Shown: one piece after another, positions 2,328 through 10,484 of the stretch | Numbering within the stretch: position 1 is the stretch's first letter | How the letters are laid out: the number at the start of each line of letters is the position of its first letter | Virus record (IMG/VR): IMGVR_UViG_3300033388_003727 | Span: 1 to 20,737 of that record | Direction: 5' to 3' (one strand) | DNA length: 20,737 nucleotides | From: a virus | Program-made: the position numbers and the translations under genes | Notes under the pieces: model-generated | What the model was told of the DNA's origin: nothing | Databases searched by the model: none | Seen by the model: only the letters and a program-made list of their open reading frames with translations

Positions 2328-2339
2328 CGAGCCTTATCG
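2322..2339. terminator. Short hairpin at the convergent gene junction
   Basis: CGATAA (2322-2327) and TTATCG (2334-2339) pair perfectly around the 6-base loop CGAGCC. The two arms contain the stop codons of the converging genes, TAA on plus and TAA on minus. The stem is AT-rich and no T-run follows on either strand, so its strength as a bidirectional terminator is doubtful. Confidence 0.3.
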
Positions 2340-2429
2340 AGCCGTAGTTTGGGCAACACAGGATACGATGCCGATTCCGATAATGCAGCCGGTTGAAATC
2401 CAGAGCATGAATCTGTCGAGGCGAGTCAT
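2334..2429 (-). CDS. Tiny membrane or lipoprotein-like ORF (31 aa)
   Basis: The frame starts in an ATGA overlap with the stop of the preceding 19-residue ORF and ends at the convergent junction. It has a basic start (MTRLDR), a hydrophobic core (FMLWISTGCIIGIGIVSC), and IVSC, which fits a lipobox (cleavage before Cys24). Only VAQTTAR would follow the cysteine. It sits at the end of the lysis genes, where Rz1-type spanin lipoproteins are found, but those are usually longer and proline-rich. A single-pass membrane peptide is equally possible. There is no Shine-Dalgarno of its own, so coding depends on coupling. Confidence 0.4.
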   Translation of the reverse strand: MTRLDRFMLWISTGCIIGIGIVSCVAQTTAR

Positions 2430-2505: not shown

Positions 2506-2907
2506 TTACGGTGCTGTTAATGCCTTCTTGGCGCTTTCTGGCTTGGCAAGCGGGCCACCAAACATCCTGACGGCTTTTAGAACCCACCACCGACGGATAG
2601 CCCACATCCCGTCTTCCTTGCAAGCCTTGACTAGTTCATTGTCTGCGGCCTCCCTATGCTCTATTGGGAGTTTGCCCTCACGCATAAGCTGGTAAAGAGC
2701 GTCATGAATCAGAGAGCCGCGCATAAAGTTTTTTGTGTCAATGGCTGGATTGGTTGGCCCGTCCCAAGCATACCCACGCCTGATAAGCATGGAGCCGTCA
2801 GGGGCCAGTGTCGTATACTCGTCCATGGCGCCAAACTGGGTTTTAATGTTGGTCTGGGTCTTCTCGCCTTCGGCCAACTGGTATTTATAACCATCTTTGT
2901 ATTTCAT
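2506..2907 (-). CDS. DUF1353 family phage protein (133 aa)
   Basis: The central motifs GYAWDGPTNP (residues 45-54) and SLIHDALYQL (65-74), followed by a helix with Asp and Glu (HREAADNELVKAC) and the Trp-rich IRRWWVLKAVRMFGG, are those of DUF1353 (PF07087), a family found in phages and prophages near lysis or tail genes. The conserved His-Asp and Asp residues suggest a small enzyme or metal site, but the biochemical role is not established. The start is an ATGA overlap with the stop of the M15 peptidase gene, so the two are probably co-translated; this supports a lysis-linked role by position only. Confidence 0.85.
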   Translation of the reverse strand: MKYKDGYKYQLAEGEKTQTNIKTQFGAMDEYTTLAPDGSMLIRRGYAWDGPTNPAIDTKNFMRGSLIHDALYQLMREGKLPIEHREAADNELVKACKEDGMWAIRRWWVLKAVRMFGGPLAKPESAKKALTAP

Positions 2908-3212
2908 GACGTTTTCCTGCGGGGTTGAAACTCCATATGGATATGATCTTTTTCAAGAATTACATCAAAATCTTCGGGCAAGTTTTCTCTGATTTTGTCC
3001 AGGATTTTATGTTCTTGTTCCAGCATGTTATGAGTGCGAATATCGCCAGCGGCCCCAGAATAATGTAATGACGTTTGAGAGTGTACGGAGTCACACAAGC
3101 TGGTGACAACCATGTCAATCCCGTGTTCTTTGCACACAGTATCCGCAACCATTAAACCAATAATAAGCTCAGGGCGAAGACCCGTGAGATTCACCCCTTG
3201 TTTAAGCTTCAT
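2904..3212 (-). CDS. M15-type peptidase, probable endolysin (102 aa)
   Basis: The sequence has the zinc-peptidase M15 signature. Numbering from the ATG used here, the SLHYSGAAGD motif supplies His50 and Asp57, and DHIHMEF supplies His90 and His92, with Glu87 and Asp89 as acidic candidates for catalysis. M15 enzymes (D-Ala-D-Ala or L-Ala-D-Glu peptidases) cut peptidoglycan cross-link peptides, and compact ones serve as phage endolysins. There is no signal peptide, so release through a holin is expected, which fits the holin-like gene just upstream. The start ATG 3212 has AAGG 10 bases upstream; an in-frame GTG at 3221 would add three residues but lies too close to that site. It could also act on wall precursors rather than in lysis. 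Confidence 0.8.
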   Translation of the reverse strand: MKLKQGVNLTGLRPELIIGLMVADTVCKEHGIDMVVTSLCDSVHSQTSLHYSGAAGDIRTHNMLEQEHKILDKIRENLPEDFDVILEKDHIHMEFQPRRKTS

Positions 3213-3255
3213 CGTTTTCACGCCTTACGTAGTGTTTAATGACTTCGTTCTTTTT

Positions 3256-3582
3256 CTAATTCCCGTGAAAGGGGCCGCCGCCAATGGGTGCATTAGCCGC
3301 CAACCAAGCCACCACAGCCGCGAAGACGCCGGTAATTGTCCATCTTATGATAGCATCCTTTGCAGCCTTCTTGGTGTCGTGTAGGTCAATTCTTTCCTTG
3401 CGTAAATGAGCAAAATCCTTCTGCATTTCAAGAGGTCTTGCCACGCTCATCCCTAGAGCTTCTAATGTGGTGTGAACGATTTGTACCGTTTGCTTTTGGG
3501 AAACTTCCCCGGCAACTTCGTGAGCAGCTTCAAAAACCACTTCCCGTATGGCTTTAATATCGTCTTCTTTTAATGCCATCAT
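3256..3582 (-). CDS. Coiled-coil protein with C-terminal membrane segment, holin-like (108 aa)
   Basis: The start chosen is ATG 3582, which forms an ATGA overlap with the stop of the upstream membrane-protein gene and follows AAGGGGG; a second ATG comes directly after it. Residues 5-78 are amphipathic and charged (EDDIKAIREVVFEAAHEVAG and similar), and residues 79-97 form one membrane helix (IRWTITGVFAAVVAWLAAN). This plan, a soluble helix then one C-terminal membrane anchor, resembles XhlA-type holin-associated proteins. Its place directly before the M15 peptidase supports a lysis role. It might instead be an inner-membrane spanin or an unrelated anchor, and no sequence motif decides. Confidence 0.65.
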   Translation of the reverse strand: MMALKEDDIKAIREVVFEAAHEVAGEVSQKQTVQIVHTTLEALGMSVARPLEMQKDFAHLRKERIDLHDTKKAAKDAIIRWTITGVFAAVVAWLAANAPIGGGPFHGN

Positions 3583-4298
3583 ACCCCCTTGGCCGCCTGG
3601 TAATAAAAAATCGAAGGCATGTAATGAAACCATGATTTTGGTTTCAGGCCCAGCATTTCAAGAACAGGCTGGCAGGTACGCACACATTTTGCACTGAATA
3701 TGCCCAGCAAGCGTGTAGGCTTCCCTGAACACTTGGCAATCTCGGCACATATCCCGGGCGTTGCTTTCACGCCAGTGTTGATAAAAACATAATCATCCGG
3801 GTTTAAAATATCGGGGTGGTTTATGGTCATTTCCCCAAAAGCCGAGGGGCGCAGCGCTGTGACCCCGCCGACGATAACGATGGAAGAAAACGGCAATCCG
3901 ATAAGCGCGCTCAATGACGAAAGCAACGGCGCCTTAGTGCCACGATAAAAGCCGATCAGGATATTCTCGCCACGGGATTCCAGGGGGAAGGATGAGTAAA
4001 AATAAGGGCGTGCCATTGCCCACAAGACAAAGAAGGAAAATATTGAAGTTTCCAATCCGGCAACTGGCGCGCTGATATATTCAGGCCATAAGTCTGTTAT
4101 AGCAATCCAGCCGAACCATATTGACAGCACCAGCAAAACTGATTTATCGCGCTGGGTGCTTTCTGCAAAGACGGCCAAGAGCATTAACAGCATTGCCTCG
4201 ATTTGCCAAAACGACACAACGAATTTACCCACCATAGGGTCTACGTGTGTCGCAAGCACCTCAAGTACATAAATAGAAATAACAAGAACTAAGAACAT
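3579..4298 (-). CDS. Membrane protein with possible permuted papain-like (NlpC/P60-type) domain (239 aa)
   Basis: The N-terminal ~100 residues hold three or four membrane helices (roughly 2-16, 26-45, 53-70, 84-98). The C-terminal ~130 residues look like a soluble domain: ENILIGFYRG (111-120), PFSSIVIVGG (136-145) and AKCVRTCQPVLEMLGL (203-218) with PSIFYY near the end. This order resembles circularly permuted NlpC/P60 or YiiX/LRAT enzymes, where a strand with a conserved His (YSHVAIV) precedes a helix with the catalytic Cys (CSELV). Here Ser139 replaces that His, so the domain may be inactive or use another residue such as His161. The gene overlaps both neighbours. The fold assignment is my inference; membrane topology is well supported. 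Confidence 0.65.
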   Translation of the reverse strand: MFLVLVISIYVLEVLATHVDPMVGKFVVSFWQIEAMLLMLLAVFAESTQRDKSVLLVLSIWFGWIAITDLWPEYISAPVAGLETSIFSFFVLWAMARPYFYSSFPLESRGENILIGFYRGTKAPLLSSLSALIGLPFSSIVIVGGVTALRPSAFGEMTINHPDILNPDDYVFINTGVKATPGICAEIAKCSGKPTRLLGIFSAKCVRTCQPVLEMLGLKPKSWFHYMPSIFYYQAAKGV

Positions 4299-4402
4299 TA
4301 TTTTGCCTTAGATTTCTTTTTTGGCTTTTTCTTCGGCCTTGATTTAATGGGCATGAGCTTTTTCCCACCTTTGCCGCGCAGTGAATTTGATCGTCTGGGC
4401 AT
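4298..4402 (-). CDS. Tiny lysine-rich basic protein (34 aa)
   Basis: ATG 4402 follows a good ribosome binding site (AAGGGAGAAAC), and the TAA overlaps the start of the membrane gene as TAATG. Of 34 residues, 12 are Lys and 4 Arg, none is acidic, and the tail is SRPKKKPKKKSKAK. Such a peptide could bind nucleic acid or acidic membrane lipid, or be a cargo of the virion, but nothing in the sequence tells which. The tight fit between neighbours, the strong start signal and the coupled stop argue that it is a real gene. Confidence 0.7.
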   Translation of the reverse strand: MPRRSNSLRGKGGKKLMPIKSRPKKKPKKKSKAK

Positions 4403-4414
4403 AATGTTTCTCCC

Positions 4415-5137
4415 TTAAATTCCAGTGTCCGGCCAACCAGCATCGAGGTCAACGGCATCAACTCCAGCAATGGTGGTGGCTTCCAAAACCTCGTTCTTCA
4501 ATTCCCGCGCGTTGATCTGGCATTCATCAACGTATTCTTCGACATCAAGATAAATTTCCCTGAACACATCAGCGCCAACAAAAAGCACTTCATTGGTTGC
4601 CGGGATGAAGCGCATGGTATCAGGCGCAAACGTGATGGTTCCAGTTGCCGGGTCTGGGTTTCCAGCAATCGGATAGGTAAAAGTTTTCTTCCCTGTTGCT
4701 GTCGCGGTTGCGGTGGTGTTGTATTCGGATTGGTCTGCCCCGGCGATAGTCACGGTGCCATCGGTTTTGATGTGGTGGTTCTTGGAGGTTGTAGCCGTAG
4801 CTGTGCCACCATCATTTGTGATTGAAACGATGGTTTTGCTATTCAATGAAGCGGCATGGATTTTCGTTGCCATCACGCCAGCATCAACGTCACCAGTATC
4901 AATCTGGTGGCCCTGCGAAGAAATTGGCAGTGATTTTTTTGCATCGCGAAGATCATCAATCGCATCCGTCTTTGTCTTTTTTGCAAAATAAATTGCATAG
5001 TCGGCAAGGATTTGAGGAAACTCATCAGGGTCTGGTTCAGGCAATGTTTCATGCCGCCAGCTTGTAATTTCTCCTTTATCCATGTTGCAACTCACAACGG
5101 GGCCATACTTCCATATCAGGGCTGCGCCTAAACTCAT
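4415..5137 (-). CDS. Tail-associated protein with Ig-like beta domain (240 aa)
   Basis: Residues ~1-95 form a mixed region (WRHETLPEPDPDEFPQILAD, then a Lys/Asp-rich helix). Residues ~98-172 form a beta-rich segment with Thr/Ala repeats (TVTIAGADQSEYN, then KTFTYPIAGNPDPATGTITF), very like the short Ig-like modules that recur in phage tail and fibre proteins. The C-terminal ~70 residues are probably helical (VEEYVDECQINARELKNEVL). It starts in an ATGA overlap with the stop of the fibre gene, suggesting coordinated synthesis. A role in the fibre or as a fibre accessory is inferred from position and the beta module. Confidence 0.6.
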   Translation of the reverse strand: MSLGAALIWKYGPVVSCNMDKGEITSWRHETLPEPDPDEFPQILADYAIYFAKKTKTDAIDDLRDAKKSLPISSQGHQIDTGDVDAGVMATKIHAASLNSKTIVSITNDGGTATATTSKNHHIKTDGTVTIAGADQSEYNTTATATATGKKTFTYPIAGNPDPATGTITFAPDTMRFIPATNEVLFVGADVFREIYLDVEEYVDECQINARELKNEVLEATTIAGVDAVDLDAGWPDTGI

Positions 5138-6636: not shown

Positions 6637-8291
6637 TCGGTTATCTTTTTTTCTGTTGGTTTTTCGACGCTATTTTTCAAAATCTCTACGACTGCTGCCC
6701 TGTCCACACGCAATTTTGAAATTAAAGCCTCATCCTTGGTGGTTCGGATTGCCTTATCTATACCCTTAAGTAAGTTAGCGACTCCCTTTTTAGCAGTTGC
6801 TGACATTACAGCCTTTCCGCCAGCAAAGACGAGACCGCCAGCTATTAGCCCCTCCCTAAACATGGGAGCAAACATCGCCGCAGCGCCTAAACCACCTACG
6901 CCAGCAAAAACTGCCATTACTTGATTAAAATCACCGCGTAAGCTAACTACATCAATTACATTCTGATAAGCCCTCTTTAGTGAGTTTGTCGCGGTATCAG
7001 CAACTTTAGGCTCTAGGTTATCCATCGTCCTAAGAAGGGTTGATTGTTTTTTGAGAGACGCTTTCACTGGCACCTTAACAACTTTGGCGGCAATTAAATC
7101 ATTCATGGCTTGGCGAACTTCCCGCGTTGCAATAGACATTGCATTATCACGAGCCGGGTCTAACGCTTTGTCTCCCCTTTCCTTACGCACCAATCGGTCA
7201 AACTCTTTGCGCGCCTTAAGCAAGCCCGAAGCTGTGCCTGGATGCTTGGCCACAATCTTTTTAGCCATATCCATAACTCTAGTGGCTGTTTCAGCAGCAG
7301 ACCCAGTAAGCAGAGGGATGTCGTCCAGCCGGGCACTTACCCTTTCCAGTGCGGATGCAACTTCCCTTCTGGGGATTAACACATCATTCTTTTTAAGCCG
7401 AGCAATGAGTCTTTTCACAGAATCATTTACTTCTTTTTGAATTATGTTGAAGTTTCCTTGAAGAGTTTCAGACGCTCCGACCCCCTCAATCAAACTAACC
7501 TCATCGGCCATTACTCTCTCAGCAACGGAGGGTTCAACCTTCTTTGTTCTCAGGGGCCCCTCTTCTGTGGTTCGTGCCACTTGCTCTCTTCGGACTTTTG
7601 CTGTGGGTTTAGGCATCACCAATTCGTCAATAAAATCTGCCTTTTGCCGCGCGGTCTGGGCCACCGCCTTTGCTTCCATGACTTCGCCAGCCCTACCTGC
7701 AATGGTGGGCTTGGCCCCAGTCTTTGGCTTCCCCTTCACAGGGGCCGCGAAAAGCCCGATATTGACCCCAGCCTCGATGTTGCGGGCTGCGCGGGGGTTT
7801 TCGGCCTTGAACGCGCCCCACGCTTCCACGCCCGCCTCAAAGGCCTCTAGGCCCGCTTGGCCCAAATCTGTTTCCATGAACGACTGGGCCGTTTCTGTAA
7901 CCAGATCAATGAGAGGGTCTTCAATTATGTCCGGCGTAATGGCGCTCAAGCCCTCCACACCACTAACAAAAGCCTCACCCATTGTGTCAAGGACTCCCCC
8001 AACACCAACCTTTCCCGTTAGTTGCAAAAGGGTTTCCGGGTAACTCTGTTCGCCTCTTTCGTAAAACCCACGGATTTCGTCACCAAGTTTCTGCCGGGCT
8101 TCAATATCCGTGGACACGCGCTCAATGAAGCCGGGCCTTTCCGTTTCTTCTACCACCGGGGTGTCTACAACAAACCCTTCCGGGGTTCCACCATCAACGG
8201 GAGCGTCCAAAATGAACCCTTCGGGCAACCCGGTCGGGGGCGCCACATCAAGGACAAAACCTTCGGGGAGCTGGGCTACTGCGTCTGCCAT
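6633..8291 (-). CDS. DNA ejection protein, P22 gp16-like position (552 aa)
   Basis: This is the third large gene after the gp10-like gene, the place of ejection protein gp16 in P22 (609 residues). These proteins are packed in the head and enter the host envelope with the DNA. Residues 8-43 hold three copies of a PEGF(V/I)(L/V)D motif at an exact 14-residue period. Residues ~170-440 are mostly charged helices, and residues 453-497 contain two hydrophobic, Gly/Ala-rich stretches (VMAVFAGVGGLGAAAMF, LIAGGLVFAGG) suited to membrane insertion. The start ATG 8291 overlaps the previous stop by 16 bases and has AGAGGCGG upstream. Homology to gp16 rests on position and architecture. Confidence 0.75.
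   Translation of the reverse strand: MADAVAQLPEGFVLDVAPPTGLPEGFILDAPVDGGTPEGFVVDTPVVEETERPGFIERVSTDIEARQKLGDEIRGFYERGEQSYPETLLQLTGKVGVGGVLDTMGEAFVSGVEGLSAITPDIIEDPLIDLVTETAQSFMETDLGQAGLEAFEAGVEAWGAFKAENPRAARNIEAGVNIGLFAAPVKGKPKTGAKPTIAGRAGEVMEAKAVAQTARQKADFIDELVMPKPTAKVRREQVARTTEEGPLRTKKVEPSVAERVMADEVSLIEGVGASETLQGNFNIIQKEVNDSVKRLIARLKKNDVLIPRREVASALERVSARLDDIPLLTGSAAETATRVMDMAKKIVAKHPGTASGLLKARKEFDRLVRKERGDKALDPARDNAMSIATREVRQAMNDLIAAKVVKVPVKASLKKQSTLLRTMDNLEPKVADTATNSLKRAYQNVIDVVSLRGDFNQVMAVFAGVGGLGAAAMFAPMFREGLIAGGLVFAGGKAVMSATAKKGVANLLKGIDKAIRTTKDEALISKLRVDRAAVVEILKNSVEKPTEKKITE
8157..8270 (-). repeat. Three 14-residue PEGF repeats (coding)
   Basis: Within the third ejection protein, LPEGFVLD, LPEGFILD and TPEGFVVD begin at residues 8, 22 and 36, exactly 14 residues (42 bases) apart, each followed by a short Pro/Gly linker. 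The codons differ between copies, so the repeat is conserved more at protein level than at DNA level. Confidence 0.85.
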
Positions 8292-9655
8292 TGGCCGCCT
8301 CTAAAGATTACTTTCTCACCAGTGTTGGGGTGGGTTGCCGTTGCGCCTTCTTGCGGGGTAATGGTTTCAACCGCTTCCTCCACGGGCGCGCCGCTAATAT
8401 CACGTTGGGCCTCTAACCACCCAGCCACTGTGTTTCCTTCGGTGCCGAGGTAAATGGCAACGTCCTCAAGATAGGCAGCAAGTTTCTCTTGTGAATCCTT
8501 TTTGCTCACCATCCAATCTCTTAAATCAGGTGCTGCTAGATTGGTTGGGAGCGCCTTGCTCAAAGCAAGATCAAGCTCACCCTTTGAAAGTGCGCCAAAG
8601 GTCGTTGTCCCGATAACATCAAGGCCCATAGCCTTCTGTACGTTATCCAATTGAATGGAGGCAGATCGGATGCTTGGCAATCTTGACAGGACGGGGCCAG
8701 TTCCCGCGCCTTCGTCAATAAGCTCAATTCCACGATCAATGTTTGCAATTGAGGTTTTGATCTTTCCAATCTGTTCAAATGCCTTCGTTGATTGTGCAAT
8801 CGCTTGCGCACCAGCACTCTTGGCTCCGGCCTTTGTTCTCTCAAATTCAATCTCTTTACTTCTAGCCGCCTTCAGGGTCTCCAGCCTGGCATCTCCTGTA
8901 ACCTCATTACCTTCTGGGTCAATAACCGCTGTTCTCCCATTGGGGAGAGCCTGAACAACCGTTCCATTACCAAATATCTTTGTAACAGCAGAAGCCATGC
9001 CAGGTTTGCTGGCTGCATCCGGCGCGCGGGGGTCGGTAACAGCACGCCCTGTTTTTGAACTTTTCTGGGCGATTATGTTACCAGTTGCATCCAATATTGG
9101 TGTGAATGTTTCCTGTGGTGTCAGCACGGTTTTGATATCCTGTGCCGCAATCTCCATCCTCTGCAATTCAAGGCCCAACTCATCTTCGCTCAAATTCTGG
9201 AGTTCAATGTAGCGATCAAGCGGTTCCCCGCGCGCGACTGCATCATTGGCTAATTTCCGGATGGCCCTTTGCTGGGAGGCAAAATCCGGTTGCTTGCCAA
9301 TAAAGGCAGCATTGCGCGCCCCACCTTCGGCTTGGGTTCTCAATACTTCCTTGGCTTCCTCGTCACCGGCTTGCAAGGTATCGCGGGTCACCTTGGCAAT
9401 TTGGGGATTGAGGGCGCCCAGCCGAATTAAAGCCGCTTCCTCAGTTGCCCTCTGGGCCTCAGGGTCGGCCCCTGGTTGGGGGATGGTGCGTTCAACCTGT
9501 TCTGCGATTTTGGCCTGTTTGGCGGCCTCCGCGTCACGCACCCGCTGTCTTTCAATCTCTGCTTGTTTTGCCGCGATGGTCTTCTCCACAGTCCCTAATG
9601 CTCTATCTAAACTGCTGACCAAGGATCCACCTTGTAAATTAGCAAGGGTAGGCAT
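8276..9655 (-). CDS. DNA ejection protein, P22 gp20-like position (459 aa)
   Basis: The start ATG 9655 is preferred because GGAG lies 7 bases upstream within the end of the previous gene; an in-frame ATG at 9694 would add 13 residues with no such site. Residues ~15-60 are a charged Ala/Glu/Lys/Arg-rich helix, likely a coiled coil, and further helical segments follow around 235-330 (LKAARSKEIEFERTKAG). The C-terminal third (FGALSKGELDLALSKALP, then VSKKDSQEKLAAYLEDVAIY) is typical of phage internal injection proteins. The gene lies between the gp7-like and gp16-like genes, where P22 has gp20. Assignment to ejection is by position and architecture. Confidence 0.75.
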   Translation of the reverse strand: MPTLANLQGGSLVSSLDRALGTVEKTIAAKQAEIERQRVRDAEAAKQAKIAEQVERTIPQPGADPEAQRATEEAALIRLGALNPQIAKVTRDTLQAGDEEAKEVLRTQAEGGARNAAFIGKQPDFASQQRAIRKLANDAVARGEPLDRYIELQNLSEDELGLELQRMEIAAQDIKTVLTPQETFTPILDATGNIIAQKSSKTGRAVTDPRAPDAASKPGMASAVTKIFGNGTVVQALPNGRTAVIDPEGNEVTGDARLETLKAARSKEIEFERTKAGAKSAGAQAIAQSTKAFEQIGKIKTSIANIDRGIELIDEGAGTGPVLSRLPSIRSASIQLDNVQKAMGLDVIGTTTFGALSKGELDLALSKALPTNLAAPDLRDWMVSKKDSQEKLAAYLEDVAIYLGTEGNTVAGWLEAQRDISGAPVEEAVETITPQEGATATHPNTGEKVIFRGGQWQTQ

Positions 9656-10484
9656 TAGCAGCCTCCAGTTCAGCAAGCAATGAAGGAAAGTCAATCACCA
9701 TGAAACCGCAGAAATCCTTGACGTGTTGCGGATATTTTGCCGCCACTTCGTCCGCCATGAAGCCGGTGGTGCCACATTTTTCAATCATGGTTCCGGCTGC
9801 TTCTGGGATCCAATCCCATGTGTAAAGGTTCAAATCCCCAATATGGGATATGGGCTTGATATCCGTTTTCAAGGCCGGGTCAGAGAAGAAAATACTAGCC
9901 GCTGTAGTGGCAAGATTAACAAGGTTTTCGGTTCCTGCTGCCCGCGCCTGTTGGGCGCCAAGAATACCGGAGGCTACATTTTGTCCCTGTTGCTCGAACA
10001 GCCCAGCGGCCCCAGCCGCAGCTTGTCCGCCCAGTTGCCCAACATTCAAGGCCGTCTGTTGACCCATACCGGCAAGCCCAGTAGCACGGCCGGAAAGCAA
10101 TTGTTCAATCATCATACCAATATCCGTTGGAATCGCTGCTGCTTCTTCAAGTGCTGTTCCAGATCGGGTGAGTCCCCCGGCAGCCAACTGGCCCTCAACG
10201 GCGCGGGTTCTTTCCCCCCTAAGGGTCTCAAATATGTCGGTTCCAAAGATTTCGGCAAGGCGCTCGTCAAGACCGCCCGCCGTGGTTCCTTGGACAACGC
10301 CCGGCAATGCACCCGTCCCAGCCTGAATGAAGGGTGCAAGCTGTTCTTGGGTAGCCCCGAATTGCTGGCGCAGCTCATCAACGCCCATCTGAGAAAAGAT
10401 ATTGGCTTGGCCAGCAGCCTGCGTTGCCGCCTTGGCGCCCTGCGAACCGGTGAAAATGTTGCCCAGTTGACTCACTAAACCCAT
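9639..10484 (-). CDS. DNA ejection protein, P22 gp7-like position, with S74-like C-terminus (281 aa)
   Basis: Residues 1-198 are Ala/Gly/Gln-rich and helical (AAGQANIFSQMG, RATGLAGMGQQTALNVGQLG), typical of phage internal or ejection proteins. The C-terminal part (residues ~199-262) carries FFSDPALKTDIKPI and GFMADEVAAKYP, which resemble the start and core of the peptidase S74 intramolecular chaperone module of phage fibres. P22 gp7 itself is 229 residues and lacks this as far as I recall. The module here lacks an obvious catalytic Ser-Lys arrangement beyond the SDxxLKxDI motif, so self-cleavage is not certain. The gene is first of the ejection trio and its stop overlaps the next start by 17 bases. 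Confidence 0.75.
   Translation of the reverse strand: MGLVSQLGNIFTGSQGAKAATQAAGQANIFSQMGVDELRQQFGATQEQLAPFIQAGTGALPGVVQGTTAGGLDERLAEIFGTDIFETLRGERTRAVEGQLAAGGLTRSGTALEEAAAIPTDIGMMIEQLLSGRATGLAGMGQQTALNVGQLGGQAAAGAAGLFEQQGQNVASGILGAQQARAAGTENLVNLATTAASIFFSDPALKTDIKPISHIGDLNLYTWDWIPEAAGTMIEKCGTTGFMADEVAAKYPQHVKDFCGFMVIDFPSLLAELEAANAYPC

Follow-up and report, generated by a model that had tools for sequence, protein, structure and literature searches.

The gene at positions 3579-4298 of the window, as the whole 20,737-base IMG/VR record is called here, encodes a 239-aa protein that consists of four predicted transmembrane (TM) helices and a C-terminal, degenerate NC/LRAT-like domain. The protein is probably a member, and then the most degenerate one, of a family of phage proteins encoded in lysis cassettes (here the 4TM-NC family), a link proposed because of the position of its gene and its weak similarity to two members, L138 and L124. 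Its function can be proposed with slightly less than even confidence: an inner-membrane factor of the lysis cassette, whose cytoplasmic His-less NC-like domain would work by binding rather than by the usual thiol chemistry.

The gene and its cassette

The ORF runs from 4298 to 3579 on the minus strand with an ATG start, and its translation contains FYRG, PFSSIVIVGG, Ser139, His161, Cys205 and Cys209, all at the places given by the first-pass annotation. Hydropathy revealed four membrane segments within residues ~1-104, followed by a soluble part; the membrane part is also backed by the helices in an AF2 model of the homologue L133 and by similarity to L124. The features of the protein and of its neighbourhood are as follows.

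3579..4298, minus strand: four-TM protein with a C-terminal degenerate NC/LRAT-like domain, 239 aa, the main finding (translation, architecture, position, weak similarity)
3987..4298, minus strand: residues 1-104, four predicted TM helices, N-in/C-in by charge (hydropathy, loop charges)
3582..3968, minus strand: residues 111-239, soluble Cys domain, predicted cytoplasmic (pairwise match to L138, alignments)
3882..3884, minus strand: Ser139, at the His position of active permuted papain-like enzymes (translation; no conserved family His there)
3684..3686, minus strand: Cys205, aligned with the invariant Cys of the family NC motif (alignments)
4298..4402, minus strand: 34-aa Lys/Arg-rich ORF, coupled to the start of the four-TM protein by TAATG (ORF overlap)
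3256..3582, minus strand: small protein with one C-terminal TM segment, ATGA overlap with the four-TM gene (phrog_6420, E 2e-10)
2904..3221, minus strand: M15/hedgehog-like Zn peptidase, putative endolysin (weak Pfam and PHROG matches; HxxxxxxD and HxH in the sequence)
2506..2907, minus strand: DUF1353-like protein at the cassette end (Pfam and PHROG matches)
4415..5137, minus strand: DUF4376 tail/fibre-associated gene directly upstream of the cassette (Pfam)

The stop of the 34-aa ORF overlaps the start of the four-TM gene (TAATG) and the stop of the latter overlaps the next start (ATGA), so the genes look translationally coupled. The gene had been described as lying directly before holin-like and M15 genes. 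Downstream are indeed the small one-TM protein, which occupies the place of the coiled-coil TM proteins of related cassettes, and then the M15/hedgehog-like peptidase. The latter was assigned on weak matches, namely E 0.0016 for Pfam HH_signal, E 0.1 for M15_3 and E 0.034 for a PHROG endolysin, and no signal or SAR segment was seen in it. The terminase, portal, coat and tail genes of the window are, by size and order, reminiscent of P22-like phages.

Some further genes of the window are recorded here. Just after the DUF1353 gene, a 31-aa ORF (2334-2429, minus strand) with one hydrophobic stretch (MTRLDRFMLWISTGCIIGIGIVSCVAQTTAR) could encode a tiny membrane peptide. The DUF1353-like protein itself (2506-2907, minus strand) matches phrog_1158, which is named tail assembly chaperone; such a gene closes lysis-type cassettes here, and in phage GR7B one is found beside the lysis-type genes, and that name may be wrong. 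In the virion region, the C-terminal part of a protein encoded at 8276-9694 (minus strand) matches phrog_26675, called endolysin (E 1.9e-15).

The 4TM-NC family and the place of the window protein in it

Searches of the window protein against Pfam, PHROGs, NCBIfam, PDB, phages, IMG/VR and genome contigs gave no match. Relatives of the window's terminase led to contig G003 (terminase 78% identical), which carries at the same place a gene (L115:3554-4279, minus strand) encoding four hydrophobic segments and then a soluble domain ending in W-S-I-F-N-N-C. The product of this positional counterpart has the same architecture as the window protein and no BLAST similarity to it. Starting from L115, the search reached L060/L124, Vibrio phage 13VV501A, the jumbo phages GR7B and GR11A, and a total of 66 Vibrio phage records; one Vibrio homologue is gene 49 of phage 1.027.O (AUR82747.1). 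The family is also present in several IMG/VR phages, and L138, L142, L143 and L144 were picked up through a DNA pattern based on the NC motif. In the two jumbo Vibrio phages the soluble domain stands alone without TM segments (L135:3908-4297, GR7B_00157; L146:3046-3384, GR11A_00132), in lysis-type clusters beside DUF1353 and spanin-like genes. This stand-alone domain may resemble Streptococcus phage ORFs, which it matched at E 0.2-0.6.

Twelve representatives were aligned, and they have in common a Tyr and a Pro in the first strand, a Gly, and the motif W-x-x-[HN]-N-C. Among the 12 the only invariant residues are Tyr, Pro, Asn and Cys; the Asn-Cys motif is thus present in all of them, and no conserved His column was found in this alignment. 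Each member or group other than the window protein was recovered by the profile of the remaining ones (E 1e-12 to 1e-28), and none of the Pfam, PHROG and NCBIfam models covers the family members tested. Scans of 46 other related records and of genome contigs with the family profile yielded no further member, and none turned up in plasmids when a Vibrio member served as the tblastn query. In the Vibrio homologues both the domain and the TM part are under purifying selection of similar strength; dN/dS of the domain is 0.09-0.35, which indicates that these homologues have been kept functional.

The genomic context is also recurrent. The common cassette order is tail genes, usually a basic ORF, the family gene, a small or coiled-coil TM protein, and an endolysin, the type of which varies: M15 in L115, L131, L142 and L143, an amidase in VpaJT_1, and in L124 a predicted wall enzyme of yet another kind. 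The TM and endolysin genes of these cassettes are similar in kind and not all homologous by BLAST; the L138 cassette is a variant with a lipoprotein instead, and several family cassettes hold another holin candidate (phrog_1544). The earlier assignment of the window gene to a lysis cassette is strengthened by the recurrence of this architecture and place in other phages. In most cassettes (the window, L115, L124, L142, L143, L131-L133 and L136), a Lys/Arg-rich ORF of 23-54 aa directly adjoins the family gene or overlaps its start, and the product of this ORF could possibly be a conserved partner peptide.

Does the window protein belong to this family? The family HMMs did not detect it (E 4.8; 15-65 in leave-one-out tests), and against the domain profile about 11% of shuffled versions of its domain reach the score of the real one. 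In pairwise comparison, the best match of the window domain among 3,176 ORFs was L138, a score reached by 0 of 1,000 shuffles, uncorrected across the several members compared; the patterns shared with L138 are VFI.., GK..RL, CV....P.L and KS[WF].[YF][ML]PSI. The full-length protein matched L124 with a score of 58 (p 0.0025, likewise uncorrected for the several members for which p-values were obtained). When 8,169 ORFs were screened with a neutral filter that asked for two or more early TM segments and a Cys-bearing soluble tail, mainly the window protein and the family came through. The window protein also has the family architecture (four TM helices, N-in/C-in, then the Cys domain) and the family place, between the tail genes and the small TM protein and endolysin genes and behind a small basic ORF. 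In the alignment it carries Lys204-Cys205 where its relatives have Asn-Cys; of the W..[HN]NC motif both the W and the N are missing, and Cys205 is preceded by an insertion of 4 residues. As to the missing His, on which the first-pass annotation had laid weight, Ser139 does occupy the canonical position, but the absence of a conserved His is a trait of the whole family and not a peculiarity of this protein.

The topology of the family was predicted from charge. Over 11 members, the N-terminus, loop 2 and the region that follows TM4 contain 62 Lys/Arg residues, vs 3 in loops 1 and 3, and the soluble domain is therefore predicted to be cytoplasmic. A cytoplasmic domain would have access to the wall only once the membrane has failed, which makes wall cleavage unlikely; the suggested action on the cell wall is thus not supported, and a wall-hydrolase function was set aside on this predicted topology.

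Fold and likeness to known systems

The single-sequence AlphaFold model of the window protein reached a pLDDT of 43, so the fold search made from that model carries no information. The model of the homologue L133, built on an alignment of nine rows (eight distinct), reached 67 and contains four helices followed by strand-helix-strands-helix, with the loop of Cys203 below 50. No structure in the PDB matched this model. In BFVD its matches beyond the family were hypovirus polyproteins (E 1e-3) and a parechovirus polyprotein (prob 0.96), with weaker ones to kobuvirus and megrivirus polyproteins, a pithovirus LRAT protein and a medusavirus C92 protein, the polyprotein matches being read at the level of the whole entry. 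The 2A proteins of parechoviruses and kobuviruses carry the H-box/NC motif (PMC11998499), and LRAT and HREV107 belong to the same NC family (PMC2656461). An NC/LRAT-like, permuted papain fold thus has moderate support from modelling for the family, and the window protein itself may share it. The motif order that had been read as papain- or LRAT-like stood in part: the permuted order is present and the L133 model matches viral H-box/NC and LRAT proteins, but the motif resemblance of the window protein to papain-like enzymes, taken alone, is not statistically significant.

The curated models of the families concerned were also tested. At E<=10 the LRAT model (PF04970) matched neither the window nor any of 12 homologue records, and the Peptidase C92 HMM (PF05708) gave no match either, with controls detected in both cases; NlpC/P60 (PF00877) did not match, and hmmscan of Pfam-A with the window protein returned 0 families at E<=1. 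Membership in LRAT, C92 or NlpC/P60 found no support in these models, and because all three tests were negative the window protein is filed as NC/LRAT-like and as a non-member. Permuted papain-type proteins with FYR...PYSH are common in phages; a regular expression for this type found no such protein among the loci.

The NC proteins (LRAT, HREV107/PLAAT and picornavirus 2A H-box/NC; PF04970 and viral relatives) resemble the phage family in the predicted order of strands followed by a terminal Cys helix, in the Asn-Cys of the family members other than the window protein, in membrane association, and through the BFVD matches to viruses with H-box/NC proteins. In contrast to them, the phage family lacks the H-box His and a PF04970 match, has four N-terminal TM helices and is encoded in a lysis cassette, and the window protein lacks even the Asn of NC. 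With C92 YaeF/YiiX (PF05708) the family shares the circularly permuted papain-type motif order and, weakly, the BFVD match to the medusavirus protein, but it is membrane anchored and has neither an HMM match nor a conserved His. NlpC/P60 (PF00877) offers a distant fold class and a link to the cell envelope, whereas its members are non-permuted Cys-His wall enzymes and the window domain is predicted to be cytoplasmic and has no Pfam match. As for the mode of working, the Mu releasin gp25 has a cytoplasmic domain tethered to the membrane and is encoded in a lysis cassette (PMC9239132). It is a candidate example of how a membrane-tethered cytoplasmic lysis factor may work, an analogy and not a relative by the tests made here: gp25 (DUF2730) has one TM segment and no Cys domain, the window protein has no DUF2730 match, and gp25 serves SAR endolysins, whereas no SAR segment is seen in the putative endolysin of the window.

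Possible roles of the protein

It is proposed, tentatively, that the protein and the endolysin are produced together from one late, translationally coupled cassette, and that the protein would act as a lysis factor at the cytoplasmic face of the inner membrane. The helix bundle may take part in holin/anti-holin function or in endolysin release, and the NC domain would bind a partner or an inner-leaflet lipid, presumably without the usual thiol catalysis.

Several other explanations have to be weighed against this. The protein could simply be the holin or anti-holin of the phage, with the soluble domain as an ornament without a separate role. It is the sole multi-TM product among the genes seen in the window's cassette, and the lack of a signal or SAR segment in the putative endolysin would agree with this; the domain, however, is constrained like the TM part in the Vibrio homologues, stands alone without TM segments in GR7B and GR11A, and is accompanied by separate holin candidates in other cassettes. 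We regard this explanation as unlikely. An equally unlikely one is that the papain-like resemblance is spurious, the soluble half being folded differently, as the pLDDT of 43, the lack of a PDB match for the homologue model and the non-significant score of the window domain against the family profile would allow; the BFVD matches to H-box/NC-bearing polyproteins and LRAT, the motif order and the L138 similarity speak against it.

Rather improbable, in our judgement, is an active thiol enzyme, for instance an LRAT-type lipid acyl hydrolase/acyltransferase, which would use another base, alter inner-leaflet lipids and so weaken the membrane at lysis. The invariance of the Cys and the preceding Asn in the 12 aligned representatives and the strong purifying selection in the Vibrio homologues are in its favor, as are the facts that the NC/LRAT class acts on lipids at membrane interfaces (PMC10318531) and that parechovirus 2A combines the H-box/NC motif with a putative TM domain (PMC11998499); it is opposed by the absence of a conserved His column, by the loss of the Asn as well in the window protein, and by the failure of the LRAT and C92 models to match. 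We give still less credence to a host-takeover or superinfection-exclusion membrane protein that merely adjoins the lysis genes. Genes of this type are often located between late operons, and a fast-diverging membrane protein with a cytoplasmic domain would suit such a role, but the gene is located inside the coupled cassette and not at its edge, and the same order is found in distinct phages.

A lysis factor with a binding NC-like domain is thus the reading preferred here. A bolder version of it, which we consider a long shot, is that His-less membrane-anchored NC/LRAT-type domains form a new class of lysis effectors that sense or modify inner-leaflet lipid, and would be to bacterial viruses what the H-box/NC 2A proteins are to animal picornaviruses. 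If a His-less NC domain is indeed kept by selection, it would show the reuse of a thiol-enzyme fold at membranes.

Conserved membrane proteins without a known role are found in the lysis cassettes of aquatic phages, and the 4TM-NC family is among them. It recurs beside several endolysin types and evolves under purifying selection; neither Pfam nor PHROGs contains it, and in at least one GenBank phage it is uncalled. Its presence in cultured Vibrio phages makes a role in lysis and a need for the Cys directly testable. In Vibrio phage 13VV501A (OQ622096.1) the family gene (L122:4686-5345) is uncalled in the GenBank record, which instead annotates a CDS that is read in a different frame and overlaps the end of this gene.
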